Source: a virus. Taken from it: a DNA stretch of 41,924 nucleotides. The stretch covers positions 1 through 41,924 of IMG/VR virus record IMGVR_UViG_3300036822_000019. The stretch is one strand, 5' to 3'. Below are positions 1 to 39,603 of the stretch, in pieces (position 1 is the first letter of the stretch; every line of letters begins with the position of its first letter). Made by a program: the position numbers and the translations under genes. Below the pieces are notes generated by a model. It made no database searches, was not told where the DNA came from, and saw only the letters and a list, made by a program, of their open reading frames with translations.

Positions 1-141
1 CACGCAATGCATGTCGACGCGATCACGTCGACATGCATTGTGTGTCTCTCTCTCCCCAACGCGACCGGGCCACCTACTCACGTGAGTAGATGACCCGGTC
101 TCGGTGTTGTGTGTCTAGCTGTTGTGGTCGCCCGACAGATA
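1..141. repeat. Terminal overlap of a circular genome plus short fold-back
   Basis: Positions 16-141 are identical to 41799-41924, so the window is a circular molecule opened near the start of thyX, with a unit of about 41,783 bp. Positions 1-15 do not match the sequence preceding the second copy. They are, with one mismatch, the reverse complement of 30-44, which looks like an end-of-contig fold-back artefact rather than phage sequence. The minus strand of 16-38 repeats the first codons of thyX. Confidence 0.9.
71..92. repeat. 22-bp dispersed palindrome, copy 1
   Basis: CACCTACTCAC followed by GTGAGTAGATG, one mismatch from the perfect palindrome found across the genome. The flanks GACCGGGC and GACCCGGTC extend the dyad. 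It lies between the stop of the gene at 115 and the start of thyX. It reappears at 41854-41875 because of the terminal overlap. Confidence 0.9.
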
Positions 142-303
142 GGCGGCAAGCTCTAGCACGTCGGCCGGATCGTAGGACCCCGGCCACTCGTGCTCGCTTA
201 TCAGCTTCCGCGCCGTGCGGTAGTAGTCCGCGCGTTCCGCTACGTACTCCGGTCCGGTCAAGTCACCGTCCGCGCCGAAGGGGAACGGCTCACTCAGCGC
301 CAC
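115..303 (-). CDS. Hypothetical protein, 62 aa
   Basis: Small acidic protein of unknown function, not recognised. I chose the GTG at 303, which overlaps the stop of the preceding gene (294-557); longer frames run deep into that gene. The C-terminal half contains a short helical stretch (ERADYYRTARKLISEHEW) and ends DHNS. The stop lies just before the first palindrome, and thyX is next in the minus direction across the circle junction. The tight overlap suggests co-translation with the 87-aa gene upstream. The start is uncertain because a clear ribosome binding site is lacking. Confidence 0.6.
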   Translation of the reverse strand: MALSEPFPFGADGDLTGPEYVAERADYYRTARKLISEHEWPGSYDPADVLELAAYLSGDHNS

Positions 304-557
304 AGGCGCGAACCCGTGGCAGTGTCCCCCGGCAGCTTGGCAGTGCGGAGCGGCGACCGGTCCGGGGTGTCGAGCACATCGGCCGTTTCGAGCAGCCACG
401 CGGCAAGGTTGCGCGCCTCAACCGGGGACAGCTTGGCCCGGTCCCCCGGGACAGCGACGGACAGAACGCCCCGCTCACGGTCGGTGTGCCATGCGAGCAC
501 CTTTCCACCCGCACGCGCGGTAAGAGTTGCCTTGGTCTCTCGCGTCACGTTCAACAT
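294..557 (-). CDS. Hypothetical protein, 87 aa
   Basis: Small unknown protein starting MLNVTRETKATL. The ATG at 557 is preceded by a purine-rich GAGGAGAGAGAAAG ribosome binding site, which supports this start over the longer frame that reads through the tRNA gene. The centre (KLSPVEARNLAAWLLETADVLD) resembles a short helical motif common in small actinophage proteins, in which a variable beta region is followed by a conserved helix. I cannot assign a function. It is the first gene after the tRNA at 594-663 and overlaps the next gene. Confidence 0.7.
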   Translation of the reverse strand: MLNVTRETKATLTARAGGKVLAWHTDRERGVLSVAVPGDRAKLSPVEARNLAAWLLETADVLDTPDRSPLRTAKLPGDTATGSRLWR

Positions 558-593
558 GCTTTCTCTCTCCTCTTGATGTTCGGCAATGCCGAG

Positions 594-663
594 TGCCCCG
601 GGCGGGATTTGAACCCGCACCCTCCGATTAGGTCGGCGCTCTGCTCAGTTGAGCTACCGGGGC
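594..663 (-). tRNA. tRNA-like gene with contracted anticodon arm
   Basis: The minus strand folds as a tRNA: acceptor GCCCCGG/CCGGGGC, D arm GCTC/GAGC, and T arm GCGGG-TTCAAAT-CCCGC with discriminator A. Only 19 nt separate the D and T stems, where 22-23 are usual. The best anticodon arm is CCGA-CCTAA-TCGG, a 4-bp stem with a 5-nt loop; forcing a 7-nt loop leaves a 3-bp stem, anticodon CTA and C at position 33 in place of U. Body and loop resemble a lysine tRNA that has lost loop and stem bases. It may be a degenerate gene or a decoy; amino acid identity is undetermined. Confidence 0.75.
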
Positions 664-666
664 TTA

Positions 667-682
667 CGGGGCCGAAGCCCCT
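667..682 (-). terminator. Small UUCG hairpin
   Basis: The minus strand reads GGGGC-TTCG-GCCCC between the 54-aa gene and the tRNA at 594-663. There is no U tract, so it may mark an RNA processing boundary rather than a true terminator. Confidence 0.45.
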
Positions 683-687
683 TTGCG

Positions 688-852
688 CTAGACCACTGCG
701 CGCATGTCGGCGAGCAGCGCCGCCGCGTCGTCGTCGTTCATGGTCACCGTGGCCACCGTCCGGCCCGATGCCGCCCTTACGTGCATGTCGACCACGTAGC
801 CCGTGCGCGTGATCTCAATGGTTCCACCGTCGGCAGTGTCAAACTTCAGCAT
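688..852 (-). CDS. Hypothetical protein, 54 aa
   Basis: Unrecognised small protein: MLKFDTADGGTIEITRTG at the N-terminus, then a short beta-rich part and a C-terminal helix (DDDAAALLADMRAVV). The ATG at 852 has GGGGAGA at a good distance, and the stop is TAG. It is too short for a normal ORF cut-off but has a clear ribosome binding site and sits neatly between the sigma-like gene and the tRNA. The beta region plus helix resembles the 87-aa product at 294-557 in general layout, but no homology can be claimed. Confidence 0.65.
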   Translation of the reverse strand: MLKFDTADGGTIEITRTGYVVDMHVRAASGRTVATVTMNDDDAAALLADMRAVV

Positions 853-869
853 TGCGTGTCTCCCCTACG

Positions 870-898
870 TGAATGCGTATGCGTATGCGTGTGCGTGA
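870..898. repeat. Short tandem ATGCGT/GTGCGT repeat
   Basis: The plus strand carries about four successive (A/G)TGCGT units in the gap between the sigma-like gene stop and the 54-aa gene start. No function is evident; slippage is likely. Confidence 0.6.
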
Positions 899-909
899 AC
901 GGTGGAAAG

Positions 910-1818
910 TCAGTTCTTACGGTTCAGTTCCTCAGCCATGGCGGCGGTGAGTTCGTCGGCGTGCTCGGCGTCCTTTGCAACAACCTTGATGTACCGCTTA
1001 CCGAACGAGCGAAGACCCTTCTTACGCGCGTCCTGAACTTGCTTAACCTCAAGGCCCATATCTGCGGCCAACTCGTCGTCATTGTCACCACGCCCGTAGA
1101 ACCCCACGGGGTCGATTCCGAACGACGCGCGGATAACGTGCGCCTGGTAATCCCCCATCGTGTCGATGACGGCTTGAATAACCGCGCACTTACGGCGCCG
1201 CTCCTCGGCGGTGACGTCAGCCGACGTAATCAGGTCCTCGGGAACACCGATCGTTCCGGCAAGCGACTCGGCGAGAGTCAGCGCGTTGTTCCCGCCCGTG
1301 GTCGGCGAGTAACCCCGGTCGTTGTTCTTCTGCGTCGGCGACGGCACGTCGATGGACTCAGCACCCTGCCAGGCAAGCCGGGCGGCGTTGGCACGGTCAC
1401 GGCCGAGACGTCGACCCTTGGGCGGCACCGTCTGTGCCAGCTTCTCGGCAAGGTAGACATCACCGTTGGCGAGTTCGAGCATGGACGCGAACACCTTTAC
1501 CGCGTCGGCGTCGGCCCCTGCCGCCCCGTTCCGCTCGCTCCGTACGGCGTCCATAAGCACGTTCTCAACCGTGGAGTACATGAAGGCAAAGAAGCTGTCT
1601 ACGGTGTCCCCAGTGAAGCGGCTAAGCGCCTCCCACACCGCGATACGGCCAACCTGTGCGAACTCTTCGCGGTAGTCCTCAAGACGGCCACCCATGCGCC
1701 GCGCGGCTATGTCTGCCAGCTTGGTTACGCGGCCCTCGGTAGCTTCGATCACTGCGGACGTAGCCGCAATGTCGTTGTTCTGCGCTGCGGTGATCTGCTC
1801 GAAGGTAAGCGCGTCCAT
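910..1818 (-). CDS. Sigma-70-like transcription factor, 302 aa
   Basis: Sigma-like layout. Residues about 50-97 (EEFAQVGRIAVWEALSRF ... STVENVLMDAVRSERN) resemble sigma region 2. Residues 108-150 hold a region-3-like helix-turn-helix, and 210-276 (HVIRASFGI ... DDELAADMGLEVKQVQ) resemble region 4. The ATG at 1818 has an AAAGAGG ribosome binding site; the longer frame would read through a conserved 20-bp element. It is preceded by a 400-bp non-coding leader and a promoter-like site whose presumed start region carries the palindrome. I infer a phage regulator that binds host RNA polymerase. It might instead be a repressor-like protein, since none is otherwise recognisable. Confidence 0.7.
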   Translation of the reverse strand: MDALTFEQITAAQNNDIAATSAVIEATEGRVTKLADIAARRMGGRLEDYREEFAQVGRIAVWEALSRFTGDTVDSFFAFMYSTVENVLMDAVRSERNGAAGADADAVKVFASMLELANGDVYLAEKLAQTVPPKGRRLGRDRANAARLAWQGAESIDVPSPTQKNNDRGYSPTTGGNNALTLAESLAGTIGVPEDLITSADVTAEERRRKCAVIQAVIDTMGDYQAHVIRASFGIDPVGFYGRGDNDDELAADMGLEVKQVQDARKKGLRSFGKRYIKVVAKDAEHADELTAAMAEELNRKN

Positions 1819-1855
1819 GGGGTGAACCTCTTTCGGTTTCGGTGTCTTCTCCCCG

Positions 1856-1875
1856 GGTCTAGGGAGTCGATGGCC
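1856..1875 (-). promoter_or_regulatory. TAGGCC element, copy 1
   Basis: The minus strand reads GGCCATCGACTCCCTAGACC, 38 nt upstream of the sigma-like gene start. It is one of six copies of a conserved 20-mer found at the heads of transcription units. It could be a phage promoter, or a start-associated sequence like those described in cluster K mycobacteriophages. Confidence 0.65.
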
Positions 1876-1879
1876 CGGA

Positions 1880-2217
1880 CGGGCCCGTTTCGCGCTGCCA
1901 GCCTGTGTGACCTGAGCCACACTCTTAGCCGGACCCATCCGGGCGGTTGCGGTGACCCCGGCTAGCGCTCGCCGTCGTCGTTGCTGGGATGAAGCTAGCT
2001 GACTTGCATACGTAGGCGAAAGCCCGTTCTTACCTAAGAGACCGACAGTCGTCGTGAGCGGTTGCCTTGGGTTCCAAGGCGTTACCAGGTATCAGCCTTC
2101 AGAACGATGGTTGCTTTACCGAGTCATACCTAGGTTGTATGCCGGTAACGGGTTGATGACCATGGAAGCTAAAAGCGGACACATGTCCCCACTTCGGCCC
2201 CGATGTGATCTACCCCC
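1880..2217 (-). other. Long non-coding region with hairpins, possible structured RNA
   Basis: About 340 bp with no credible gene, of lower GC than its surroundings. It contains GCCTTGG-GTT-CCAAGGC (about 2065-2081), CATAC/GTATG around CTAGGTT (about 2125-2141), a long-range GTTACC/GGTAAC pair enclosing them, and GGC-GAAA-GCC on the plus strand (about 2016-2025). It lies between a promoter-like site at 2246-2274 and the sigma-like gene, so on the minus strand it would be a long 5' leader or a separate RNA. The family is unknown; no riboswitch or intron class was recognised. Confidence 0.45.
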
Positions 2218-2239
2218 CACCTACTCACGTGAGTAGGTG
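2218..2239. repeat. 22-bp dispersed palindrome, copy 2
   Basis: Perfect copy: CACCTACTCAC then GTGAGTAGGTG. It begins 6 nt downstream of a promoter-like -10 on the minus strand, overlapping the expected transcription start, which is the classic position of an operator. Confidence 0.9.
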
Positions 2240-2245
2240 CCCGAG

Positions 2246-2274
2246 AGTATTTGACTCGTTACAGGTAAAGTCAC
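2246..2274 (-). promoter_or_regulatory. Promoter-like site upstream of the non-coding leader and sigma-like gene
   Basis: On the minus strand GTGACT (2269-2274) and AATACT (2246-2251) are separated by 17 bp, close to a sigma-70 -35/-10 pair. The palindrome at 2218-2239 would cover positions near +1 to +22. Inferred from sequence only. Confidence 0.45.
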
Positions 2275-2317
2275 TCCGCGTCGACAACGAGGGCACCCAC
2301 CATCGACGCAGAGTGAC
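2270..2317 (-). terminator. Hairpin after DNA polymerase gene
   Basis: GTCACTC-T-GCGTCGA pairs with TCGACGC-G-GAGTGAC across an 18-nt loop: 14 pairs with one mismatch. It lies 24 nt after the polymerase stop and is followed on the minus strand by TTTACC. Probably a terminator, although the U tract is short. Confidence 0.6.
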
Positions 2318-2339
2318 GGACCACAACACAACACAACGA

Positions 2340-4187
2340 CTAGACGTCGGCCCCGTACAGCGACCCCCAGGAACGACGGCCTATCTCTGCCTCGCTCTGG
2401 ATCGGCACGCCGAAGAGATCGAACGTCATGCACCGCTCAAACTCCCGCGCGAACTCTTCCGCTTCGCTCGCCGGAACTGACGCCAACATCTCGTCATGGA
2501 TCGGCAAGCGGCAGTAGTCCAACAACCCTGCCTCTTCCATGTGCATCATGGATTGGCCGAGCACGTCACGCGCGGCACTCTGGCACGCGTAGTTGACCAC
2601 TGCGTATGTACGGTCCCGGTCCAGGGGCAAGCGTCGACCCGTTGCCGACACGTGGACCATGCCGGTTTGGAACGCTTCACGCTGCCACCGGTTGGACGCG
2701 CGCTTGATCTCCGGATAGACGCGGTCATACGCGGCTAGTGCCTGCTGCACTTCCGCCATGGGTGCACCGGTCTGCCGCTGAATCGTCGCAGCGCCACCGC
2801 CGTACACCTTTCCGAACCCAATTCCCTTGGCAAGCTTTCGATGTGCCTTAGTGAAATTCGGGCCGAACACGAGGGACGCCGTGAAGTCGTGCAAGTCGTG
2901 GCCATTCCGAATGGCCTCTTTCATTCGCTTCACGTCGGCGAGTGCGGCAAGAACGCGCATCTCTACGGCGGCAAAGTCCGTGGACACCATTACGTGCCCC
3001 TCGTCGGCGAGCAGACAGCGCCGGATCATCTGATCGGATGACGGCAACGTTTGCAGCGCCGGACGCGTAATCGACATACGACCCGTCCGGGCAGTCAGAG
3101 TGTTTATGAACGGGTGTATCCGACCCTGATCGTCCACGGTCTCTAGGAACGTCTCGGCGTACGCCGACCGCCACTTGCCCGCACGCTTCGACCTAAGCAC
3201 CGCATCGGCGAGCGGGTTAGGCGTACGGACCCCTAGCCGGTTCCACTGGAGATCCATATCAGCGAGAGCGAGCAACACCGCCTTATCGACCTTGACGGCA
3301 CCCCCGGCCGTCGTCTCGGTAAGCACCTCCCCCATACCCGTGAGTGCTTCGGCAATTTGCTTGTTCGAGTTCACGGACTCGACCCCGTACCGGGCCGCAC
3401 GTCCCGCGTGCTCCTCGGACTCTTCGGCAAGATGCGCGTTCAGTGCCTCGGTAAAGTCCCGGTCGAGTACCAACCCCTTGCGCTGCATCACGCTGCACAT
3501 GCGGGCTATCTCGTGCTCGTACTGGACGAGTGCGGTACGCACGCCGAGCCGTGACAGTTCGGCGGTCAGCGCAGGATCAAGCCGGGCCGTCAGGATGACG
3601 TCAAGTCCCGCGTACAGGTTGTACGTCGGGTGGTCTAGGTCGATACCCGCCCACCCGGTCGCCTTAGTCAGCCCAAGGGACCGGAACACCGCCGTAAGGT
3701 CCCCCTGTGTGTCCGGCGCCGTCCGGTCGACGTAGTACGCCGACAGGGGCTTAAGACCGGTCCCGGTGCCCCCTTCCATCGGCTGACGCGGGTCGATCAG
3801 GGTTGCTTTGATCTTTGTGTCAGTTGTGCGGGGCGCCATTTCCTCAAGCGGAATGCCCGCATGACGGTCCAACACAAGCCAGTCGAACGGGGCGTTATGA
3901 ATCAGGAACCGGCGGATACGGTGCAGCGCTTCGAGCGCCACCCGGCGGAAGTGTCCGCCCCGCTCCCAATGGATGACCCATGCGTTATGCGCGTCGCCGA
4001 ACTGCACCGTACGCAGACGGTAGCTAGTGCCGAAGATGTCAAGGCCGGTTGTCTCGGTGTCCAGCGCGATCGGACCCCGGCGGTTGGCATCCTGTGCCCA
4101 CGCTAGGAAGTCGTCCAACTCTTCGGCGGTTGCGGGGACATGGACGCTGACATCATCACCGGCGACGTTGTGGCGGTAGGTAAGCAC
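2340..4187 (-). CDS. DNA polymerase I (family A), phage replicative type
   Basis: 615-aa family A polymerase carrying 3'-5' exonuclease and polymerase domains and no 5' nuclease domain, as in T7-like and cluster A phages. Exonuclease motif I is LDTETTGLD (D43, E45), followed by an HNAPFDW motif. Polymerase motif A (STDFAAVEMR) is near residue 400, the O-helix RKLAKGIGFGKVYGGG near 457, and motif C HDE near 564. The GTG start has AAGGAGAG at the correct spacing. It is the last gene of the replication block, following primase-helicase across a palindrome, and should replicate the phage DNA. All catalytic motifs appear intact. Confidence 0.95.
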   Translation of the reverse strand: MLTYRHNVAGDDVSVHVPATAEELDDFLAWAQDANRRGPIALDTETTGLDIFGTSYRLRTVQFGDAHNAWVIHWERGGHFRRVALEALHRIRRFLIHNAPFDWLVLDRHAGIPLEEMAPRTTDTKIKATLIDPRQPMEGGTGTGLKPLSAYYVDRTAPDTQGDLTAVFRSLGLTKATGWAGIDLDHPTYNLYAGLDVILTARLDPALTAELSRLGVRTALVQYEHEIARMCSVMQRKGLVLDRDFTEALNAHLAEESEEHAGRAARYGVESVNSNKQIAEALTGMGEVLTETTAGGAVKVDKAVLLALADMDLQWNRLGVRTPNPLADAVLRSKRAGKWRSAYAETFLETVDDQGRIHPFINTLTARTGRMSITRPALQTLPSSDQMIRRCLLADEGHVMVSTDFAAVEMRVLAALADVKRMKEAIRNGHDLHDFTASLVFGPNFTKAHRKLAKGIGFGKVYGGGAATIQRQTGAPMAEVQQALAAYDRVYPEIKRASNRWQREAFQTGMVHVSATGRRLPLDRDRTYAVVNYACQSAARDVLGQSMMHMEEAGLLDYCRLPIHDEMLASVPASEAEEFAREFERCMTFDLFGVPIQSEAEIGRRSWGSLYGADV

Positions 4188-4215
4188 GTGCTCTCTCCTT
4201 CACATGCGAACGGGC

Positions 4216-4237
4216 CACCTACTCACGCGAGTAGGTG
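4216..4237. repeat. 22-bp dispersed palindrome, copy 3
   Basis: Central variant: CACCTACTCAC then GCGAGTAGGTG. The flanks CGGGC and ACCCG extend the dyad. It lies between the primase-helicase stop and the polymerase start. Confidence 0.9.
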
Positions 4238-4261
4238 ACCCGTAGGGGTGTGGCTATGTGG

Positions 4262-6697
4262 TTACTTGGCGAAGATGCCCGGACCTTCGGCCGGAGACAC
4301 TGCGGCGGGCTCACGGAGCCCCACAAGGGCAATGCCCTTAGCCGTCTTCTTGCGGGTCACCCCGCGCTCTTCCATGGCGTCATAGAACGCGCGACGCGTC
4401 CAACGCTCTTTGTCCGGCAGGTTCTCCGCTTCGCACCAATCCAGGTACGTGTTAAACGCTTCGGTCCCGTTCATCACGTGCCTGTCATCGCACGTTTCCA
4501 GCACGCCCGGGAAGAACCCCGCGAGAGCATCGGACGTCTCGCGGTATTCCTTGCTTGCCTTGCTGATTACGCCCGGGTCCTGAAGCCCCCCAGCGAACCA
4601 CTCGACAGCGCCACGGACGGCCCATGCGGCAATGCCTTCCGCCTCGGACATCAGCTTTTCGTCAAGGCCGTAATCCCGCTCGTGCGGCGCGAACCAACGC
4701 TTAAAGGGGATCATCTTGACGCGTCGCCACAACCCCTCGTCCTGCCCGCGAAACTTCGGCTTGTGGTTCGTCGCAAGCATCAGAAGAAACGTCGGCTTGA
4801 ACTCGAAGAACTCTTGCCGGAGGAACCGCGCAGCGATCATGTCCTTACCGGTCACCCGCTTTAGCACCGCTTCGGACATCGGCTTACCGCTCTCACCTTC
4901 AGCGGCCATGACCAGCCGTGAACCCCGCAGCGCCGCAACGTCGTTGGGGATACCGCCGCTTGCCTTCTCCTCGAAGGTGGCGAACGGGGTTGTCTTACTG
5001 ATCACCCGAAAGACGGCCGTAAGCGTGTCGGTAAGAACGCTCTTTCCGTTGGCACCCTTGCCCCACAACACCGCGAAACACTGTTCCGACGTGTGGCCGG
5101 TGATCCCGTACCCGATCATGCGGCGCATGTAGTCGGGCAAGTCGGGGTTACCCGGGAAGATCTCCGTAAGGAACTGTTCCCAACGGGCGCACTCGGCGTT
5201 GGGCCGGTAGTGCACGTCAAGGCAGTACGTCAACATGTCGTCCTTATCGTGCGGACGCATCACGCCCGTACGTAGGTCGACAGTCCCATTACGGAAGCTG
5301 AGCAAGTCGGGCCGGTTGTCGAATTCCGACGCTTCGACGTGCACCGTGGGCACGCTGCGAAGTTCGGTCATCAACGCATCAATCCGGGTGGTCATGGTGA
5401 ACCCCCGTGCTTTCTGCGTCTCCCCTGCCAGCACGAGAGCCGCCCCCATGCGGTGAATCTCCTGCCGCACCTTGACTTCCGACCGTTCCCACGTCCGGCC
5501 GTTCCACACGTAGTAGCCCAACCCCGGGGCGAACTTGATACGGCCGTCTGACCACGCAACCAACGCGTGTGCGTTCATGGCGTCAGACTCGCCGTAACGG
5601 TTGATGAGCCCCGCGAGGATGCGCGCCGCCTCGGTGCCCTGATCGGACGAGACAACATCGGCCCCGGTGCGATCGGTCAACTCGGCGTTTACGGCTTGTC
5701 GTTCGGCCTCTTTGCTGTCCCGCACGGGGCGAGCTGCCTTGACGGCACGGTGCAGCTCACGAGCGAACCCAAGGGGGTCACGCTTGCGCCAATCCGTAAG
5801 GTCGTCCCCAGCGTTGGGGATAGTCAGCGCGTAGACGTCGACCCCGTGGGCGGCAAGCCCAACGGACAGACGACGCGTGAACCCCTGCCCCGCAGCGTCG
5901 TTGTCTCCCGCGACGATGACTTGAGACCCCTTGAGCCCCGCCGCAAGTTCGGCGGCAAGCTCGGGGCTACCGGCGAGAGCGGCACCCCGGACGGCTACCG
6001 CGTCGTACCCAACGGCAACCGCTGTAAGCGCGTCTCCGGGCCCTTCAGTCACGATGGTGACCCCGTACCCACCCTGCCCGCGAAAGACGCCGTACGGGCT
6101 CCACCGCTGCGCCTCGGGGTTGCGGAGCGAGACCCAACGCCCCGGGCAACCGCCGGACAAGTCGCGACCCTGTAGACCACGGGCCACGCCCGCGAAGTCA
6201 GCGAGCGGAACCGTAAGCCGGGGGTACGCCATGAACGCCCGTGAACGGTAAGGGAAGTTGGTCACCCATGCGCCGTCATCGGCACCAAGCATGAGATCCC
6301 GTGCCGTCTCCTCGTCCATGCCGAACCGGTCGGCAATGTACGCGAGAGCATCGGGCCCAACCTGTGAGTCGGACGAATGCAGTTCATCGGCGGCACGGTC
6401 GACGTACTGAGCAAGTGCGGCCGTCGGCCCCGGACCGACAAGGGACGGCTTTTCACGCGGCACCGTGGCGCCGTCTCCCGTTGCGTTGAACAAGTCTCCC
6501 CATGTGAGGTTTGCAGCCTTGACGACGTTTGCTGTGTCACAACCGGCGCGGCAAGTAAGCCTCACCTTGTTGTCATCCCCACGCCAGATACGGAGCGACG
6601 GACGAGAGTCGGTGTGTCCGGGGCAGAGTGCGAGGTATCCCCCGTCCGCCTCTTCGGAGACATCCGAGAACCGGCTAAGAAGTTGAGCGAATTGCAT
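4262..6697 (-). CDS. Primase-helicase (CHC2 zinc, TOPRIM, D5-type ATPase)
   Basis: 811-aa bifunctional replication protein. A CHC2-type zinc site is formed by C25, H28, C49 and C53. A TOPRIM-like core has VTEGPGD near residue 214 and GDNDAAG near 264. The C-terminal half is a D5-type superfamily 3 helicase with Walker A GKGANGKS near residue 547 and a downstream MLATNHKPKF motif. The ATG at 6697 follows AAAGGGGTTCAC, and the longer frame would cross the conserved element at 6717-6736. It should prime and unwind at the fork for the adjacent polymerase. Some related phages split these activities between two genes; here they are fused. Confidence 0.9.
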   Translation of the reverse strand: MQFAQLLSRFSDVSEEADGGYLALCPGHTDSRPSLRIWRGDDNKVRLTCRAGCDTANVVKAANLTWGDLFNATGDGATVPREKPSLVGPGPTAALAQYVDRAADELHSSDSQVGPDALAYIADRFGMDEETARDLMLGADDGAWVTNFPYRSRAFMAYPRLTVPLADFAGVARGLQGRDLSGGCPGRWVSLRNPEAQRWSPYGVFRGQGGYGVTIVTEGPGDALTAVAVGYDAVAVRGAALAGSPELAAELAAGLKGSQVIVAGDNDAAGQGFTRRLSVGLAAHGVDVYALTIPNAGDDLTDWRKRDPLGFARELHRAVKAARPVRDSKEAERQAVNAELTDRTGADVVSSDQGTEAARILAGLINRYGESDAMNAHALVAWSDGRIKFAPGLGYYVWNGRTWERSEVKVRQEIHRMGAALVLAGETQKARGFTMTTRIDALMTELRSVPTVHVEASEFDNRPDLLSFRNGTVDLRTGVMRPHDKDDMLTYCLDVHYRPNAECARWEQFLTEIFPGNPDLPDYMRRMIGYGITGHTSEQCFAVLWGKGANGKSVLTDTLTAVFRVISKTTPFATFEEKASGGIPNDVAALRGSRLVMAAEGESGKPMSEAVLKRVTGKDMIAARFLRQEFFEFKPTFLLMLATNHKPKFRGQDEGLWRRVKMIPFKRWFAPHERDYGLDEKLMSEAEGIAAWAVRGAVEWFAGGLQDPGVISKASKEYRETSDALAGFFPGVLETCDDRHVMNGTEAFNTYLDWCEAENLPDKERWTRRAFYDAMEERGVTRKKTAKGIALVGLREPAAVSPAEGPGIFAK

Positions 6698-6716
6698 GTG
6701 AACCCCTTTCTCTCTC

Positions 6717-6736
6717 GCTCTAGTGAGTCGATGGCC
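6717..6736 (-). promoter_or_regulatory. TAGGCC element, copy 2
   Basis: The minus strand reads GGCCATCGACTCACTAGAGC, followed by GAGAGAGAAAGGGG and the primase-helicase ATG 20 nt on. Confidence 0.65.
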
Positions 6737-6791
6737 TGTCCCGCGATTCACACCGTGTGGCGTGCGTCACGAGACAGGCCAGGGGTTCGAG

Positions 6792-7319
6792 CTACTGCGC
6801 GCGTCGCACGTCGGCGAGTAGCTGCGCGTACTGCTCTAGCTCACAAGTCACGTACCAGCGGCCCGTATCCAGCCCTCGGAGCGTCGGCGTGAAGCCGTAG
6901 CGCGCCCGCATGGTGCAGGTATCCAGGGACAGCGCTAGACGCACGCGCGTCCACGTCCTGACATCGAAGTGCACCCGGCCCCGGGCCACGTTCGCGCGAC
7001 GCACCTTGTGCACGGCGACCCCGTACGGGAATCCAGCGTTGCGCGCTTCGACTAGGGCTTGCCGTAGCCATGACGGCACGGCCGGACTCTTGACGTCCTT
7101 TGCTTCGAGGATGAACGGCCACGCGTGCGCGTCGCCTACGTCGTAACTCCCCTCTTGAGCCTGCCTCTTGATGTTGAGCGGGTCAGCCGGATTCCTGAAC
7201 GGCGTTACCCACTGCGGCAGTTCGCGCCACCCGTCGACGTACAGCCCTAGCCGGTCGTTCAGGTAGTCGCGTATGGCACTCTCCCACGCTGTCCCGCGTG
7301 CCTTGTTGGGGTTAGCCAC
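6792..7319 (-). CDS. PD-(D/E)XK nuclease, resolvase-like, 175 aa
   Basis: N-terminal NPNKARGTAWESAIRDYLN is typical of the leading helix of Holliday-junction-resolvase-like PD-(D/E)XK proteins. SYDVGD followed by FILEAKDVK supplies the expected D and ExK residues, and RQALVEARNAG the trailing Q helix. It probably cuts branched or recombining DNA during replication. The GTG start at 7319 overlaps the end of the 38-aa membrane gene. It is followed by element copy 2 and primase-helicase. The fold is inferred from motif order only. Confidence 0.7.
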   Translation of the reverse strand: MANPNKARGTAWESAIRDYLNDRLGLYVDGWRELPQWVTPFRNPADPLNIKRQAQEGSYDVGDAHAWPFILEAKDVKSPAVPSWLRQALVEARNAGFPYGVAVHKVRRANVARGRVHFDVRTWTRVRLALSLDTCTMRARYGFTPTLRGLDTGRWYVTCELEQYAQLLADVRRAQ

Positions 7320-7428
7320 GCTTCCCCCGGGCGTAGAGAACGGCTAGCCCCACGGCGAGACCTAGCACACCGAGAACCGAACCGATCAGCGAGCCGAGCA
7401 ACGCCACCGCGAACGGTTCCCCCTGCAT
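7312..7428 (-). CDS. Single-span membrane peptide, 38 aa
   Basis: Encodes MQGEPFAVALLGSLIGSVLG, a continuing hydrophobic stretch and a positive C-terminus (YARGKRG). This predicts one transmembrane helix with an inside-positive tail. The ATG overlaps the TAA of the preceding gene (TAATG), and the stop overlaps the next gene's GTG start, so translational coupling is likely. Function is unknown; a small membrane effector or holin-like accessory is possible but unproven. Confidence 0.6.
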   Translation of the reverse strand: MQGEPFAVALLGSLIGSVLGVLGLAVGLAVLYARGKRG

Positions 7429-7604
7429 TACGCCACCCATCGAATATCCGCCCCTCGTGAAGCTGCACCGCCGATCGCGTCGGCGTACCGTGGCCAGTCC
7501 TTACGCGTCTCCGTGCCCCGCACAATCCACACGGTGTCACCCGTGCCCATGGCTCGAACATCCCCTAGTGCGGGGGCAGTTGTAGCCGTGATCTTCCTGT
7601 CCAT
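7428..7604 (-). CDS. Hypothetical protein, 58 aa
   Basis: Begins MDRKITATTAPALGDVRAMG and continues with a likely beta segment (DTVWIVRGTE) and a helix. Not recognised. The ATG at 7604 has AAGGGG at good spacing, and the start lies 13 nt beyond a palindrome, so the palindrome occupies most of the leader. It heads a coupled cluster with the 38-aa membrane peptide and the resolvase-like nuclease. Confidence 0.65.
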   Translation of the reverse strand: MDRKITATTAPALGDVRAMGTGDTVWIVRGTETRKDWPRYADAIGGAASRGADIRWVA

Positions 7605-7616
7605 CGAACCCCTTCG

Positions 7617-7638
7617 CACCTACTCGCGTGAGTAGGTG
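7617..7638. repeat. 22-bp dispersed palindrome, copy 4
   Basis: Central variant: CACCTACTCGC then GTGAGTAGGTG. It lies between the terminator of the gene at 7698 and the start at 7604. Confidence 0.9.
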
Positions 7639-7649
7639 GTGAAACGACA

Positions 7650-7687
7650 AAGGGCCGGACAGCACCACATCGGCACCGTCCGGCCCT
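7650..7687 (-). terminator. Intrinsic terminator
   Basis: GGGCCGGACGGTGCC pairs with GGTGCTGTCCGGCCC, followed on the minus strand by TTTGTCGTTT. It directly follows the stop of the gene at 7698-8021. Confidence 0.85.
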
Positions 7688-7697
7688 AGCCGGTCTC

Positions 7698-8021
7698 TTA
7701 CTCGTCGTCGTCGTTGTCATCGCCCGTAACACCGGGCTCAATGAGCCGGACGTGTTCCGCCGAGATCCACTCAGCGCGGAGCGAACGACGCTTAGTGAAT
7801 CCGCTCTCCGTGCCGGTTGGCTTCACCCGCAGCATGGGGCGGAGTCGACCACCTTCGAGAACGGCCGTCACGTCCATGACTACCGCATCCGACATGCGCA
7901 CCCGGTTACCCTGCCGTGCCGAGTAGGCGACTAGGTCACCCCGGTAAAGCTCTTCACCCGCATAGTCAGTGATTACGCCACGCTTACCCATACTCAGGAT
8001 CTCCGCACTCTTCATCGACAC
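7698..8021 (-). CDS. Hypothetical protein, 107 aa, acidic tail
   Basis: Unrecognised. The body (GVITDYAGEELYRGDLVAYSARQG ... AEWISAEHVRLIE) looks like a small beta-barrel of SH3 or KOW type, where a GDLVAY turn is typical. It ends in a run of Asp and Glu (GDDNDDDE). The start is ATG at 8021 or the in-frame ATG two codons later, overlapping the preceding 61-aa gene by 38 bp. It is last in the operon running from the exonuclease, before a strong terminator. Confidence 0.7.
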   Translation of the reverse strand: MSMKSAEILSMGKRGVITDYAGEELYRGDLVAYSARQGNRVRMSDAVVMDVTAVLEGGRLRPMLRVKPTGTESGFTKRRSLRAEWISAEHVRLIEPGVTGDDNDDDE

Positions 8022-8169
8022 CGAAGCGCCGTCGCCGCTCGTGAATCACTGCCGGTCGCTCGCTAGGCGCGTATTCCCAAAGGGGAAGTCGTATCGCCTC
8101 ATCCGGTAGCACACGGAGCAACTTAGGGAAGTCGGTCAGCGTGCTACCGGGAAGGTAGGTGTTCGACAT
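7984..8169 (-). CDS. Hypothetical protein, 61 aa
   Basis: Starts MSNTYLPGSTLTDFPKLLRV; no family recognised. The ATG is 1 nt from the TGA of the gp3-like gene (TGACATG), so it is probably translationally coupled. It overlaps the next gene by 38 bp, longer than usual, which makes the exact start of that downstream gene less certain. Confidence 0.6.
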   Translation of the reverse strand: MSNTYLPGSTLTDFPKLLRVLPDEAIRLPLWEYAPSERPAVIHERRRRFGVDEECGDPEYG

Positions 8170-8170
8170 G

Positions 8171-8869
8171 TCAGCGCTCGTCGGCAATCGCATCGTTGTA
8201 CGACTTCAGAACCTTGATGACGGGCTTTCGGTACGAGACGTCACGGCCCTTCTTAGTCGTGTACTCGACCAGCTCTAGCGAGAGTTCACAAAGCGCCTCA
8301 CCCTTGACCATGGAAAGGGCGTTCTCATACTCGTGCAGAACCTCGGCCATGGTCCAAGAGCCCGTCTGAAAGCGGAACTTACCCAGGTCGTAATCCTCGG
8401 CGAGACGGAACACGACGGAGATAGACGGAGACGGACCCATGAAGTCCTTAGCGGCCTGCTTTCGCTCCGCCATAAGCCCCGGGCACCGGCACGGCTGACC
8501 CTTCTTCTCCTCGGGAGAAAGGAACGCAACCCCGTCGCAGTGGTGAACAAGCTTGTTCCGATTCCACAGCTTCATATCGGAGTTGATCGCGCGGGGACCG
8601 TCGAGGACAACGAGAATCTTGTCAGTGTCGCTGATAACGTCGATGAAGTTCTCATTCGTCGTGTCAGTCTCCACCGGCTGACCGCCGTAAAGCTGCGCGA
8701 CCGAATCGGCAACGACCTTATCCCCGGTCGAGAAACGCCACGTGTTAAGGGTCTCGGGAATGCCGTTGACGGCACGGCCGGAGTGCAGTCGACCAACAAA
8801 GTCATCGGCGAAAGACGGGCGCGCCTTCGGCATGGCGTCGGGGTCGGTCTCAAAGATGCGGATAGCCAT
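8171..8869 (-). CDS. phiC31 gp3-like protein, candidate recombination directionality factor
   Basis: 232 aa, beginning MAIRIFETDPDAMPKARPSF. As I recall the phiC31 gp3 family, shared features are this N-terminus, a VILDGP-like stretch (here ILVVLDGPRAINSDMKLW), a Cys/His cluster HHCDGVAFLSPEEKKGQPC with CRCP, and a C-terminal TTKKGRDVSYRKP block. In phiC31 this protein binds the integrase and reverses its direction to excision; this phage has a phiC31-type integrase, so that role is plausible. The protein is also found in phages with other integrases, so a second role in DNA metabolism cannot be excluded. The start at 8869 has AGGGGAGAG; the frame open to 8983 would translate a palindrome. 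Confidence 0.7.
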   Translation of the reverse strand: MAIRIFETDPDAMPKARPSFADDFVGRLHSGRAVNGIPETLNTWRFSTGDKVVADSVAQLYGGQPVETDTTNENFIDVISDTDKILVVLDGPRAINSDMKLWNRNKLVHHCDGVAFLSPEEKKGQPCRCPGLMAERKQAAKDFMGPSPSISVVFRLAEDYDLGKFRFQTGSWTMAEVLHEYENALSMVKGEALCELSLELVEYTTKKGRDVSYRKPVIKVLKSYNDAIADER

Positions 8870-8949
8870 ACGGGTCTCTCCCCTGGTAATGCGGATTGGG
8901 CCGAAAGGGGCGAGCGAGGATTCCCACACGTGTCCACGTGAGCCGGTGT

Positions 8950-8971
8950 CACCTACTCGCGTGAGTAGGTG
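8950..8971. repeat. 22-bp dispersed palindrome, copy 5
   Basis: CACCTACTCGC then GTGAGTAGGTG, in the leader of the gp3-like gene downstream of element copy 3. Confidence 0.9.
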
Positions 8972-9019
8972 AGTTGGGCTCATCTGCCGTGCGGTCCGTC
9001 GCTCGCCCCCTTCTCTCTC

Positions 9020-9039
9020 GGTCTAGTGAGTCGATGGCC
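9020..9039 (-). promoter_or_regulatory. TAGGCC element, copy 3
   Basis: GGCCATCGACTCACTAGACC on the minus strand. It begins within the TAG stop of the exonuclease gene and is followed by GAGAGAGAAGGGGG. It lies upstream of a palindrome and the gp3-like gene. Confidence 0.65.
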
Positions 9040-9878: not shown

Positions 9879-9918
9879 GCTGTGTGCCCCTTTCCGGGGT
9901 GTAGGTGCCTTCTCCCGG

Positions 9919-9938
9919 GGTCTAGGGAGTCAGCGGCC
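9919..9938 (-). promoter_or_regulatory. TAGGCC element, copy 4
   Basis: GGCCGCTGACTCCCTAGACC on the minus strand, 41 nt upstream of the exonuclease ATG and directly after the long inverted-repeat module. Confidence 0.65.
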
Positions 9939-9953
9939 TACGGGGCGCCACAG

Positions 9954-10042
9954 TGACGAATGACGGACGAGACGGTGTTTTGGCTTTCTCTTGTAACTTC
10001 TCAATGGGATTTCAGAAAACCCATCTAAACCGTCATTCGTCA
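9954..10042. repeat. Long inverted-repeat module, copy 1
   Basis: TGACGAATGACGG (9954-9966) and its exact reverse complement (10030-10042) are separated by 63 bp of A/T-richer sequence. Each arm contains TGACG twice. A second copy at 33541-33629 shares the arms, the adjoining ACGAGACG and parts of the interior. It is bounded by a terminator on the upstream side and a TAGGCC element on the other, in a 293-bp stretch without genes. It is probably a regulatory or replication site. Confidence 0.75.
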
Positions 10043-10117
10043 TCATTGGTTGCTCAGGGTCTCGCGCTGATCACGTAGAGGCGCGAAGCGCTAGGCGCCT
10101 GTCTGCGGGCATAGCAA

Positions 10118-10150
10118 AGCCCCGCCGGACCACAGGGGCCAGACGGGGCT
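10118..10150 (-). terminator. Intrinsic terminator
   Basis: AGCCCCGTCTGGCC and GGCGGGGCT form the stem, followed on the minus strand by TTTGC, after the stop of the 182-aa gene. A related hairpin preceded by GTCTGCGGGCAT occurs after the integrase. Confidence 0.75.
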
Positions 10151-10171
10151 AAGGGGCGCTTAGGTGAGCGT

Positions 10172-11789: not shown

Positions 11790-13133
11790 CTAGCTCAGCG
11801 CGCCGAGCATCTTTTGAAGCTCTGCAATCTGCGCCTTGATGGACTTCTTGAGCGCATCGCGCTCCTTGTCGTCCATGTCGTCGGCGACCTCGTCAATGTC
11901 GATGTCATCCGCCGTCGCCACCGCCTTGACGGCCTTACCGGCCTTGCTCACAGCGGCCTTTACGCGCTCCGTCGGGGTCTTTTCCTTGGGGGTCAGTCCC
12001 GCTTCCTGCGCCTCGGCCTCGGCCTCTCCCTCCGTCAGCTCACCGGCCTTGACGCGGGCCGCGAGAGCCGCCTTAGCTTCCCGCGCTGCCTTAGCGATCT
12101 CCGCCCGAGTCTTGCGGGTGGTGATGTTGTGGAAGTCGAAGACGGCTTCAGACAGCGCCTTGTCCGGGTGCGCATCCTGCGCGTACTGGTACTGCGCCTT
12201 GACCTCGTCTGACGACGTGTCCAGTGCCCGAATGAACAGCGCCCTGACGTCGCCCATGGCGTTCTGCGCGCTCTTCTTGATGCTGCCGATCTCCGCGCGG
12301 ATAGCGTCGTCCGCCTCGTTCTCGCCCTCTTCGGCAAGCTTCTCCGTGATCGCGTCGTAGACCGTGCTGGACGCTTTCTTAGCGGCGTCGGTGTCCGCCG
12401 CGAAGTCGATGTAACCCGCGTCCGTCTTGATGTGCGTGCGGATTTCGAAGATCTTCGCTGCGATCTCGTGGCCACCCTTGAACTTGCTGATCGCAAGTTC
12501 GCGAACCTTTGCCGACGCCTCTTCGACCAGCTCAGGAACACCGGGGATCTTCGCAAAGTCGGTCGGCGTCTTTGTAACCACCTCACTACTCTGCGTAGCC
12601 TTCGGCTCCTCGGCCTTCGGCTCCGCCACGTTCGCGGCAGACAGGTCCCGACGCAGCTTGTTGCGGTCCTTAGTCGGAAGCTGCCCGATCAGGGTGTCGG
12701 TCTCGGCCGACAGTTCCTTTGCGCCCTCGGCGTTCTCCGCCTCGGCGAGCGAGCGCACACGCTCGATGTTCGCGGCAATCTCCTCACGGAGACGCGCGTT
12801 CTTCTCCGCTGCCGTCTCGGGCTTGGCCTCGGTCTTGGTCTCGTCCTTAGCGGGCATTTCCCCACCCTCTCCGTTTTCGTCGTTGTCGTGCTGCTCGGGC
12901 AGCATAGCAGACGCAGCGTCAGCAATGGTAACCATGCGCTTCCAACACGTCGCACAGGGTGCGGCACTCATCTCGTTAGCATCGGAAACGTCGATGTACG
13001 AGCTAACTGCCCGACTGCACAGCGTGTCGTCATTGCGGGGTGACAGGTGCGGAGTCTTGCCTTTGCCGACCAGCGCAAACGTGTTCGAGGCGGACAGGTC
13101 GAACCACTCCTGAAGTTCGTTGCGCTCGTTCAT
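11790..13133 (-). CDS. Large charged protein of unknown function, 447 aa
   Basis: N-terminal 65 residues hold a possible zinc site (H29, C39, C60 and C63 in PCATCW). An acidic, low-complexity linker follows (QHDNDENGEGGEMPAKDETK), then a long Ala/Glu/Lys-rich helical region and a terminal coiled coil (DALKKSIKAQIAELQKMLG). I do not recognise it; a structural or nucleic-acid-associated role is only a guess. The ATG at 13133 lies after GGGGAGAGAGG. The longer frame to 13211 would translate a palindrome. It stands alone between a terminator plus palindrome and a G/C-rich hairpin. Confidence 0.8.
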   Translation of the reverse strand: MNERNELQEWFDLSASNTFALVGKGKTPHLSPRNDDTLCSRAVSSYIDVSDANEMSAAPCATCWKRMVTIADAASAMLPEQHDNDENGEGGEMPAKDETKTEAKPETAAEKNARLREEIAANIERVRSLAEAENAEGAKELSAETDTLIGQLPTKDRNKLRRDLSAANVAEPKAEEPKATQSSEVVTKTPTDFAKIPGVPELVEEASAKVRELAISKFKGGHEIAAKIFEIRTHIKTDAGYIDFAADTDAAKKASSTVYDAITEKLAEEGENEADDAIRAEIGSIKKSAQNAMGDVRALFIRALDTSSDEVKAQYQYAQDAHPDKALSEAVFDFHNITTRKTRAEIAKAAREAKAALAARVKAGELTEGEAEAEAQEAGLTPKEKTPTERVKAAVSKAGKAVKAVATADDIDIDEVADDMDDKERDALKKSIKAQIAELQKMLGALS

Positions 13134-13200
13134 GTCCGCTGCCTCTCTCCCCGCCCGGCCCGTTGCCGTGCTTCGAGAGGAACGTACCACACCCACACCC

Positions 13201-13222
13201 CACCTACTCACGTGAGTAGGTG
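13201..13222. repeat. 22-bp dispersed palindrome, copy 6
   Basis: Perfect copy, between the dNMP kinase terminator and the start of the 447-aa gene. Confidence 0.9.
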
Positions 13223-15224: not shown

Positions 15225-15246
15225 CACCTACTCACGTGAGTAGGTG
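15225..15246. repeat. 22-bp dispersed palindrome, copy 7
   Basis: Perfect copy placed only 2 bp after the tail fibre TAA and immediately before the terminator, so it cannot be a simple promoter operator for the next gene. Confidence 0.9.
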
Positions 15247-20508: not shown

Positions 20509-20530
20509 CACCTACTCACGCGAGTAGGTG
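20509..20530. repeat. 22-bp dispersed palindrome, copy 8
   Basis: CACCTACTCAC then GCGAGTAGGTG, one base after the tape measure TAG and upstream of the hairpin at 20460-20501, repeating the stop-palindrome-hairpin order seen at 15.2 kb. Confidence 0.9.
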
Positions 20531-23939: not shown

Positions 23940-23961
23940 CACCTACTCGCGTGAGTAGGTG
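23940..23961. repeat. 22-bp dispersed palindrome, copy 9
   Basis: CACCTACTCGC then GTGAGTAGGTG, flanked by CCGGT and ACCGG, which lengthen the dyad. It lies between the tail tube stop and the chaperone leader. Confidence 0.9.
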
Positions 23962-27613: not shown

Positions 27614-27635
27614 CACCTACTCGCGTGAGTAGGTG
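27614..27635. repeat. 22-bp dispersed palindrome, copy 10
   Basis: CACCTACTCGC then GTGAGTAGGTG, two bases after the MuF-like stop and before the scaffold gene. Confidence 0.9.
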
Positions 27636-27637
27636 AG

Positions 27638-29792: not shown

Positions 29793-29820
29793 ACGTACCC
29801 CCAAAGCGGGGCACGCGTCC

Positions 29821-29842
29821 CACCTACTCACGTGAGTAGGTG
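29821..29842. repeat. 22-bp dispersed palindrome, copy 11
   Basis: Perfect copy, between the terL stop and the portal start. Confidence 0.9.
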
Positions 29843-29854
29843 GGGGCCCAACGC

Positions 29855-31474: not shown

Positions 31475-31476
31475 GG

Positions 31477-31944
31477 CTAGCCCCCTTCGGCAAACATCCC
31501 CTTGTAAGCGCTTAGGTCAAGCACTGCGGCCGTTGGGCCGTCGGTGGACTTGCCGGGGGTAGTGGTGGTCATTCGTCCGCGTAGGCGGTCAACGTGAGTC
31601 GCGCCTAGTAGCGATTCGTTCTGCCGGATTTCCTTGATGATTTCCAGCGCTGCGCGCATCTTGCGCGTGTCCTCGGCGTTTGCCGAGACGGTAAGTCGGT
31701 TGTAGCTGTCGACCAGCGGGAGGAGCGCTAGTAGGCGCTGCCAATCGGTCGCAGTGAAGTGAGCAGCTTGCCCGCTCTCCGCCCACGTAGCCCACCAATC
31801 GCGCGTGCCCTTTAGCCAACGCTTAGGCGTGGGCAGGGTGGGAGCGTCTACAGCGGCGATATCCGGCGCGTCCGTCTCTGCGGCGAACGTGTCGGCGTTC
31901 CGGCGACGCTTGTTTTCCTTGGGTGGTGGTCCGAAGCCAGCCAA
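31477..31944 (-). CDS. Terminase small subunit
   Basis: 155 aa beginning at a TTG (LAGFGPPPKENKRRR) with a near-ideal AGGAGGT six bases before it; the longer open frame has no such site. Residues about 35-130 (PKRWLKGTRDWWATWAESGQ; IIKEIRQNESLLGATHVDR) match the phage terminase small subunit family (P27-like). It should recognise the cos region lying just upstream (31950-32139). Confidence 0.87.
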   Translation of the reverse strand: MAGFGPPPKENKRRRNADTFAAETDAPDIAAVDAPTLPTPKRWLKGTRDWWATWAESGQAAHFTATDWQRLLALLPLVDSYNRLTVSANAEDTRKMRAALEIIKEIRQNESLLGATHVDRLRGRMTTTTPGKSTDGPTAAVLDLSAYKGMFAEGG

Positions 31945-31949
31945 GGCGT

Positions 31950-32139
31950 CACCTCCTCGCGCGTGCGCGCGTGTGCGCGTGGTGTTGGTTGGGCTACTGA
32001 AAAGGTTCGAGACCCGTACACGAACGGGGCTGCTATTGGCCCCCGGGCGGGGTGAGAAACAAAAGGGGGTCACCCCCCACCCACGGCGACCAAGTGTCGC
32101 TGCGAGTAACGCAGAACATTGATTTCAAGCGTGTTCAAA
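31950..32139. other. Probable cos/packaging region
   Basis: 190 bp without a gene between an HNH gene and terS, the usual site of cos in related phages. It holds an alternating CGCGCGTGCGCGC tract, a GGGGGTCACCCCCC dyad (about 32066-32080) and an A/T-rich part with TCAAGCG and its inverse CGCTTGA (about 32127-32158) and repeated CATTGATT. The cut position cannot be read from sequence. Confidence 0.5.
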
Positions 32140-38403: not shown

Positions 38404-38404
38404 G

Positions 38405-38590
38405 TCACTCTTCCGTGCCGATGATCTCCGCCGTTCCGGTGAGCGGGTCGACGTCGTGACCCTCACGGCAGAGGTACAGCCAAACCTGATGCTTAACGGT
38501 CGTCGGGCCGGTCAACTCGTGCGCGTCTACCTCCGTCGTCCACGTCTTCCCGTTCTCCGCCGGAAATTCCACTCGCCACACGTTCCGCAT
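38405..38590 (-). CDS. Hypothetical protein, 61 aa
   Basis: MRNVWRVEFPAENGKTWTTE with later VWLYLCREGHDVDPLTG; probably a small beta protein. Strong AGGAGGTAAGAAA ribosome binding site, the best in this part of the genome. Function unknown. Confidence 0.72.
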   Translation of the reverse strand: MRNVWRVEFPAENGKTWTTEVDAHELTGPTTVKHQVWLYLCREGHDVDPLTGTAEIIGTEE

Positions 38591-38626
38591 TTTCTTACCT
38601 CCTGTCCGGGCGGGCTATTCCCGCCA

Positions 38627-38652
38627 CTCCATAGCCCCCGCCGAAGCGGGGG
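38627..38652 (-). terminator. Hairpin terminator
   Basis: GCCCCCGC-TTCG-GCGGGGGC on the minus strand after the 158-aa gene; no U tract, but a very stable UUCG stem. Confidence 0.65.
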
Positions 38653-38664
38653 CCCTGATCGTGG

Positions 38665-39141
38665 TTACACGGTGACCGTGCGAATGAATCGGTTGCGACC
38701 GATCCCCACTGCCTGAACGCCAGTCTGAACCCATCCGGTGCGCGTCCACTTGCACAGGTCGCGAACCCGGTTCACGGTGTTGGGCAACGTGGGGTGCGGC
38801 TCATCCGGCGTCTTGAACTGCCAAGAGAAAGTCATGATGGATTTGCCGTCTTCGAACACGGTCACAGGCTCCGAATACTGAGTGCGCTGGACAGCTTCCC
38901 ACGCTGCCGCCTTTGTGCCGTACTCCCCCTTGATCGGAATATTGGTGAACGTGCCGCTGATCGGCTGGACAGAAAGGGTGTACGTCGGCATGGCCTTCTC
39001 TCCGTGGAAGGCAAGCCAGCACTTAGCGTCGGCAAGCGCCATGCCTTCCGTGTAGTAACCGGGGGTGCGGTACAGGATGCTGTCACCCTTGCGGACGGTT
39101 CCGAAGTGCTTGCCGTTCCGAGCCTCAACCGTGGTGTTCAT
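38665..39141 (-). CDS. Hypothetical protein, 158 aa
   Basis: Two repeated segments (GKHFGTVRKGDSILYRTPGY; YTLSVQPISGTFTNIPIKGE) suggest beta-rich modules, with WLAFHGEKAM between them and a C-terminal part RVRDLCKWTRTGWVQTGV. No family recognised. The ATG follows AAGGGGCGGGCAGG. Confidence 0.7.
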   Translation of the reverse strand: MNTTVEARNGKHFGTVRKGDSILYRTPGYYTEGMALADAKCWLAFHGEKAMPTYTLSVQPISGTFTNIPIKGEYGTKAAAWEAVQRTQYSEPVTVFEDGKSIMTFSWQFKTPDEPHPTLPNTVNRVRDLCKWTRTGWVQTGVQAVGIGRNRFIRTVTV

Positions 39142-39219
39142 CCTGCCCGCCCCTTCGTTGCTGTCGTTGTGTGCTCATCATGGGGTACGCGGGTCGATGC
39201 GCGCAAGTCCAGAAAACAC

Positions 39220-39254
39220 AAAAAGCCCCCGGACATTGTGAGTGTCCGGGGGCC
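39220..39254 (-). terminator. Intrinsic terminator
   Basis: GGCCCCCGGACA and TGTCCGGGGGC with loop CTCACAA and TTTTTGTG on the minus strand, after the Cys-rich gene. The loop is shared with the hairpin at 36113-36137. Confidence 0.88.
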
Positions 39255-39263
39255 GTTCGCTGC

Positions 39264-39488
39264 CTAGCTCATGCGCTCGTAAAAGTCCGCGCACGGGTCA
39301 CACGCGCCGATCTCTCCGACGATCGGGCCACAGTCGATGATCTGCGTTGCGGGGACGCCCTTAGCGGTGTGCGCTGCGCTGTAGCCACACGGGACGACGC
39401 CGAAGCGGTGCGGCTGGTAGATGTTGCCGTCGCACTCGGTGCCGTGGAACCCGCAGCGGACAAGCTTGCCGTTCAGTGTGCCCATCAT
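39264..39488 (-). CDS. Cys-rich hypothetical protein, 74 aa
   Basis: MMGTLNGKLVRCGFHGTECD with further Cys residues (VPCGYS, IDCGPI, GACDPCADF), eight in 74 aa, suggesting metal binding or disulphides. Tandem ATGs at 39488 and 39485 follow GAGGGAGAGAG. A longer open frame runs through the palindrome region and is unlikely. Function unknown. Confidence 0.7.
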   Translation of the reverse strand: MMGTLNGKLVRCGFHGTECDGNIYQPHRFGVVPCGYSAAHTAKGVPATQIIDCGPIVGEIGACDPCADFYERMS

Positions 39489-39581
39489 GTTCGCTCTCTC
39501 CCTCCGTCGGCCCGGACCGTCCGGACCAACAACGCGCACACTACACAGTTTCGGCCCGCAGTACACCATCCGATCGGGGGT

Positions 39582-39603
39582 CACCTCCTCACGTGAGTAG
39601 GTG
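39582..39603. repeat. 22-bp dispersed palindrome, copy 14
   Basis: CACCTCCTCAC then GTGAGTAGGTG, one mismatch, between dCMP deaminase and the Cys-rich gene. Confidence 0.88.

Follow-up and report, generated by a model that had tools for sequence, protein, structure and literature searches.

What does a 22-bp palindrome do that recurs at gene boundaries along an entire viral genome? The question is raised by IMGVR_UViG_3300036822_000019, a 41.9-kb IMG/VR virus record analysed over its positions 1 to 41,924 (hereafter "the window"), in which a first-pass annotation had described fourteen such palindromes and proposed a genome-wide silencing or transcription-blocking system. Our analysis makes us highly confident that the phage is temperate and phiC31-like and that the 14 palindromes are conserved inverted repeats (CIRs), serving as operators for the repressor c that it encodes itself. 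The sites are real, very probably functional and understood in kind, as a further member of the phiC31 repressor-CIR system.

The palindrome and the phiC31 inverted repeats

The palindrome CACCTACTCACGTGAGTAGGTG matches the window 15 times at no more than one mismatch, which corresponds to 14 distinct sites, the 15th match (41854-41875) being site 71 repeated within the terminal repeat; 100 dinucleotide shuffles of the window contained no copy. All 14 copies were recovered at the coordinates first reported, with 0 or 1 mismatch, and the variation is indeed confined to two central transitions (A10G in four sites, T13C in two) and two single mismatches (G20A in site 71, A6C in site 39582), with the outer bases CA...TG kept in 14 of 14. 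The inner 18 bases, CCTACTCACGTGAGTAGG, occur at up to two mismatches at 16 sites in phiC31 (9 of them exact), at 16 in phiBT1 and at 15 in Shawty. Compared letter for letter, the core of the window palindrome is the phiC31 CIR, which goes beyond the likeness that had been suggested, and the system is not a new one. We take the phiC31 CIRs to be operators of repressor c, as Smith and colleagues reportedly described them.

To compare positions as well as sequences, a boundary was counted as shared if it has a site and at least one homologous neighbouring gene, by protein comparison, and the null expectation was derived from 5000 draws of random intergenic gaps. Gene coordinates for the distance, boundary, spacing and pair-change analyses were entered manually, and four of the nine annotated phages fetched (TG1, Euratis, Dubu and Heather) were excluded from distances, boundaries and spacing. 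With phiC31 the window shares 11 of its 14 sites (a homologous neighbour is present for 12), against a random mean of 5.21, and none of the 5000 draws reached 11. The corresponding counts are 11 for phiBT1 (P 0.0004), 10 for Sebastisaurus (P 0.0032), 9 for Shawty (P 0.0014) and 6 for Nesbitt (P 0.036), and 13 of the 14 sites are shared with at least one of these five phages, site 27614 being the exception. The single counterpart of site 8950 is a Nesbitt site that has three mismatches and runs into the end of an annotated gene. In all six phages one site lies 388-401 bp ahead of the sigma-factor gene or its homologue.

The window also encodes a repressor of the matching family. PF25746 ("Phage_Repressor_c", "Streptomyces phage repressor protein c") is the only Pfam family matched by this protein, with a score of 184.8 bits against a cut-off of 27, and the protein is 27% identical to phiC31 c over 347 alignment columns. 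An internal in-frame ATG at 12857, which has its own GAGG motif and is located upstream of the part covered by PF25746, would give a short form of 355 aa; in phiC31 the repressor has in-frame nested forms. Similar internal ATGs are found in the repressors of relatives, and in one of them (L006) the frame, judged from sequence alone, is open for the short form only. In our alignment A2, which leaves out 11 of the 37 c-family loci described below, 27 of 27 repressors match PF25746.

The window thus resembles phiC31 and phiBT1 in the 18-bp core, in the number of sites (14 compared with 16) and in their almost exclusively intergenic distribution over early and structural regions, in the site ahead of c and the PF25746 repressor with an in-frame internal ATG, and in the similar order of the genes for serine integrase, Gp3-like recombination directionality factor (RDF) and sigma factor. 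It differs in that its c gene lacks an internal site, whereas phiC31, phiBT1 and Shawty have one inside c each, in that closely doubled sites are absent while the outer bases CA...TG are present throughout, and, with respect to phiC31, in the low identity of the repressor.

Positions of the sites relative to genes

In agreement with the first-pass annotation, all 14 sites lie clear of the 54 gene calls with refined starts, although the noncoding fraction is only 12.1%. The refinement was based mostly on Shine-Dalgarno motifs; if the longest open reading frames (ORFs) are used instead, sites 8950, 13201, 29821, 32881 and 39582 fall inside or overlap upstream ORF extensions. The start of the exonuclease gene was left uncorrected (there is no start codon at that position), and this gene adjoins no site. 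The genes called beside the sites run on the minus strand. At 15.2, 20.5, 27.6 and 38.4 kb the site follows a stop codon only 1-2 bp away. Terminator-like hairpins adjoin three sites, directly after them at 15.2 and 38.4 kb and directly before at 7.6 kb; the scans for such hairpins and for promoters stopped short of bases 40001-41924. The earlier description of sites placed directly after a stop and before a terminator at 15.2, 20.5 and 38.4 kb therefore holds for the stop codons at all three positions and for the hairpins at 15.2 and 38.4 kb, while at 20.5 kb the hairpin scan listed no terminator, the sequence there being GC-rich and able to pair, without a T-run. The sites (given without strand) are as follows.

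71..92: CIR site, G20A; ahead of the ThyX gene across the joined ends, repeated at 41854-41875
2218..2239: CIR site, perfect; flanked by the genes for DNA polymerase and sigma factor, sigma start 399 bp away
4216..4237: CIR site, T13C; primase/DNA polymerase boundary
7617..7638: CIR site, A10G; shares a homologous upstream neighbour with the phiC31 gene 4/5 site, terminator-like hairpin just before
8950..8971: CIR site, A10G; the Gp3-like directionality factor starts 80 bp on
13201..13222: CIR site, perfect; start of repressor c (ATG 13133) 67 bp on
15225..15246: CIR site, perfect; tail fibre stop 2 bp earlier, followed by a terminator-like hairpin and then endolysin
20509..20530: CIR site, T13C; tape measure stop 1 bp earlier
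23940..23961: CIR site, A10G; 16 bp past a homologue of the Nesbitt major tail protein gene, counterpart in Nesbitt only
27614..27635: CIR site, A10G; head maturation protease stop 2 bp earlier, counterpart in none of the five phages compared
29821..29842: CIR site, perfect; past the homologue of the phiC31 terminase large subunit, 28 bp to the (portal) ATG 29792
32881..32902: CIR site, perfect; the tRNA cluster on one side, gene 32508-32858 (homologous to phiC31 gene 30, HNH endonuclease) on the other
38382..38403: CIR site, perfect; stop 1 bp earlier, terminator-like hairpin next
39582..39603: CIR site, A6C; deoxycytidylate deaminase gene ends 29 bp earlier

Analysis of the spacing gave a mixed picture. 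Under a null model of random intergenic gaps the sites are more evenly spaced than by chance in the window (P 0.0007, and 0.0008 in a separate run) and in Nesbitt (P 0.004), and the result is not significant for phiC31, phiBT1, Shawty and Sebastisaurus (P 0.11-0.18), which have doubled sites. When the gaps are instead weighted by length in the null, all six phages are significant (P <= 0.002). As the outcome depends on the null and on the phage, we do not claim even spacing as a general law.

Genes were found for a serine integrase, Gp3-like directionality factor, sigma factor, DNA polymerase, primase, ThyX, endolysin, tape measure and head protease, in a phiC31-like order except for the starting point of the record. 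Four genes of note are the following.

11790..13133, minus strand: repressor c, PF25746 (E 3.4e-54 on the longest ORF, 11790-13211), 447 aa from ATG 13133
33842..35728, minus strand: large serine integrase, in the longest site-free interval (32881-38382)
8171..8869, minus strand: Gp3-like RDF, PF18897
910..1818, minus strand: phage RNA polymerase sigma factor, phrog_15865

Relatives and other palindrome classes

A search of related phages for the 22-mer, as the first-pass annotation had suggested, retrieved 106 sites at up to four mismatches in the analysed stretches of 12 uncultured IMG/VR contigs (six near-complete ones, with 14-16 sites apiece, and six fragments). None of the 106 lies wholly within homology-supported coding DNA, which makes up 51% of the bases, and five overlap its edge. 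In six phages, each searched with its own core at up to four mismatches, 85 of 88 sites (a count that includes the repeated copy in the window) are not wholly intragenic, and the other three are inside c. The repeat is therefore not equally frequent inside the genes of relatives; equal rates there had been put forward as evidence against a silencing function.

Repressor matches, 36-78% identical, were found in five of the six near-complete contigs, and that of the sixth turned up in a wider search, which yielded 37 c-family loci, including one in each of the six near-complete contigs (a 33-residue repressor fragment in L043 was omitted). Across 595 kb of these loci the pattern CACNTAC-N8-GTANGTG occurs 55 times, in 15 of the 37 loci, against 0.0 in shuffles; with other spacers the two half-sites occur 6 times (7 bases), 3 times (9 bases) or not at all (4-6 and 10-12 bases). 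Six of the 15 loci are the contigs found by the 22-mer and some others look like near copies, so that the number of independent cases is smaller. The central eight bases vary by class (TCACGTGA, GAAAGTTC, CAATTTTG, AGGAAACT), and phiC31 itself does not fit the outer form of the pattern. Sebastisaurus and Nesbitt carry different palindromes (CTACTCTTAAGAGTAG, CACCTCACGTGAGGTG) at several shared boundaries, and hence the palindrome set changes with the phage. Since many of these boundaries are occupied by another palindrome in more distant c-family phages, the protein that reads the sites is probably phage-encoded.

A prophage in a lysogen, Streptomyces uncialis DCA2648 (L069, G001:C4, near 206862), has its c-family repressor gene amid 14 sites of the CAGTG type (CAGTGACTCACGTGAGTCACTG-type), one with a changed core and one with a changed outer base. 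Exactly one window-type site stands among them, which may have been imported when the prophage recombined with a phage belonging to a different immunity class. Lone palindromes were also found in four Streptomyces genomes and one archaeal metagenome-assembled genome (L048 at 5265, L049 at 953, L050 at 3666, L051 at 1053, a two-change variant, and L052 at 2523), and no PF25746 member was found in these five genomes. In the four Streptomyces copies the palindrome extends into the flanks; these are probably coincidental host hairpins.

Action of the sites and rival explanations

A genome-wide, repressor-based silencing set is well supported by the presence of the c gene, the site before it, the boundaries shared with phiC31 beyond chance and the other palindromes at many of these boundaries in more distant relatives. 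In a lysogen, a symmetric unit of the repressor would bind every 22-bp site. The site before c would serve for autoregulation, and at the other 13 boundaries lytic transcription would be shut off by blocking initiation nearby, with the repressor probably also obstructing polymerase coming from upstream genes; we infer the split between the two modes. The proposal made at the outset is thus partly supported: the silencing stands, and its second element, a block of elongation, is plausible. The longest site-free interval contains int in five of the six phages, and in Nesbitt the int interval is the third longest, which fits a silencer that spares the integration genes.

Several observations weigh against identifying the palindromes as operators of c. 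The repressor shares only 27% identity with phiC31 c, so that the link between protein and sites consists of family membership and co-occurrence. In 22 of the 37 c-family loci the CACNTAC-N8-GTANGTG pattern was not found, and other palindromes or none were found there. Both neighbours of site 8950 are present in phiC31, phiBT1, Shawty and Sebastisaurus, where no site separates them, and the homologous boundary of 15225 has no site in Sebastisaurus. Finally, neither of two predicted models of the repressor, the first weak (pLDDT 65) and the second good (pLDDT 85), gave a Foldseek match in the PDB at E <= 0.001, so that no known DNA-binding fold was matched, and a profile search of PDB sequences returned none at E <= 1. 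Further structure comparison related residues 5-82 to helical bundles, among them ribosomal protein S20, at Z up to 8, a likeness that may reflect no more than a common arrangement, and a BFVD search with the model returned the repressors of Vash, Shawty and Nesbitt. These structure searches rule out nothing.

An alternative at the level of RNA is that the sites are hairpins, i.e. terminators, processing or translational signals, instead of DNA operators. A site could fold into a 9-bp stem closed by an ACGU loop, terminator-like hairpins lie next to three of the sites, and among 37 changed pairs in 120 pooled window-class sites 18 leave G-T and 8 lie in the would-be loop, both of which a hairpin would tolerate. 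Yet none of the 37 is compensated, and for this reason a DNA operator is favoured; moreover, pairing is lost altogether in 16 of 29 changed stem pairs, it extends into the flanks by a mean of only 1.15 pairs, and 86 of the 120 sites are identical, which a hairpin would not need. The argument is good but not absolute, and leaves the RNA hairpin very improbable. We give slightly less credence still to sites for a host factor, or for partition (parS-like) or replication. Sites of parS and of nucleoid proteins are palindromes scattered over a genome, as are the sites described here, but among phages isolated on Streptomyces the palindrome differs from phage to phage at several shared boundaries, and a PHROGs scan of 30 window proteins, a subset of the genes, named no partition protein.

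A different question, compatible with operators of repressor c and subordinate to it, is whether most sites are roadblocks in the manner of stoperators and only a few are promoter operators; here the evidence leaves us evenly divided. No sigma-70-like promoter match was found on the coding strand at the sites, and no site is overlapped by any of five copies (at up to two mismatches) of an CGACTCCCTAGACC-like element, located on the minus strand near 1869, 6730, 9033, 9932 and 13927, which are candidate phage-specific promoters; two further matches at three mismatches were omitted. A related element, GGGTTGCCGACTCCCTTAC, lies upstream of similar genes in phiC31, where it presumably represents the early promoters. 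Roadblocks would also suit the five late-region sites, which lie 1-16 bp past a stop and 25-68 bp ahead of the next start, the terminase/portal boundary, where only 12-28 bp separate site and start in five phages, and the two sites sandwiched between a stop and a terminator-like hairpin. On the other hand, promoters could sit within the upstream gene, at its 3' end, or follow an unknown consensus, and the sigma-70 scans, in which matches were rarer than in shuffles (1 vs 3.8 and 1 vs 4.2), carry little weight for this phage. The element near 9033 is followed about 50 bp downstream by site 8950, and an operator of a promoter could act there too. According to PMC9283540, stoperators of phage L5 (cluster A) are asymmetric 13-mers that a monomer is predicted to bind; their orientation follows that of transcription, and the block requires this orientation, which a palindrome does not have. 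A block of elongating polymerase at symmetric sites is nonetheless plausible.

The likeness to L5, which the first-pass annotation had placed beside that to phiC31, is only partial. Mycobacteriophage L5 likewise has many repressor sites in short intergenic spaces throughout its genome, with a proposed role in prophage silencing, but the window has a 22-bp palindrome and a PF25746-family repressor. An L5-type motif matches the window once at up to two mismatches, with 1.91 expected, i.e. at chance level. With palindromic sites and the motif at chance, we do not assign them to the L5-type stoperators. Streptomyces phage R4, for which PMC10276819 describes a repressor-stoperator system, is also temperate with intergenic repressor sites, a similarity drawn from that description. 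The CIRs are not mentioned in PMC11530663.

It is conceivable, if rather unlikely, that the sites are nodes bridged by oligomers of repressor c, which would silence the prophage by folding it into loops or by halting polymerase that arrives from either direction, with the integrase module outside the array; if true, such silencing of a whole prophage would differ from the oriented stoperators of L5. Irrespective of the mode of action, with the sites recognised as repressor c operators, an uncultured phage and its relatives can be assigned to the phiC31 immunity system. The same operator core accompanies repressors of such low identity, and cross-immunity with phiC31 thereby becomes testable, while the CACNTAC-N8-GTANGTG pattern may allow the immunity type to be read from sequence in part of the family. 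Silencing by symmetric sites away from recognisable promoters is a well-posed question that can be addressed in phiC31.

Two minor features of the window concern its ends and its tRNA genes. Bases 1-141 and 41783-41924 form an imperfect 141-bp terminal repeat (132 of 141 identical, and 99% from base 13 on), so that the ends are probably circular or redundant, with a blemish from the assembly. Four tRNA genes (Leu, Leu, Trp and Cys) are located at 32908-33333, between the integrase gene and the start of the structural region.

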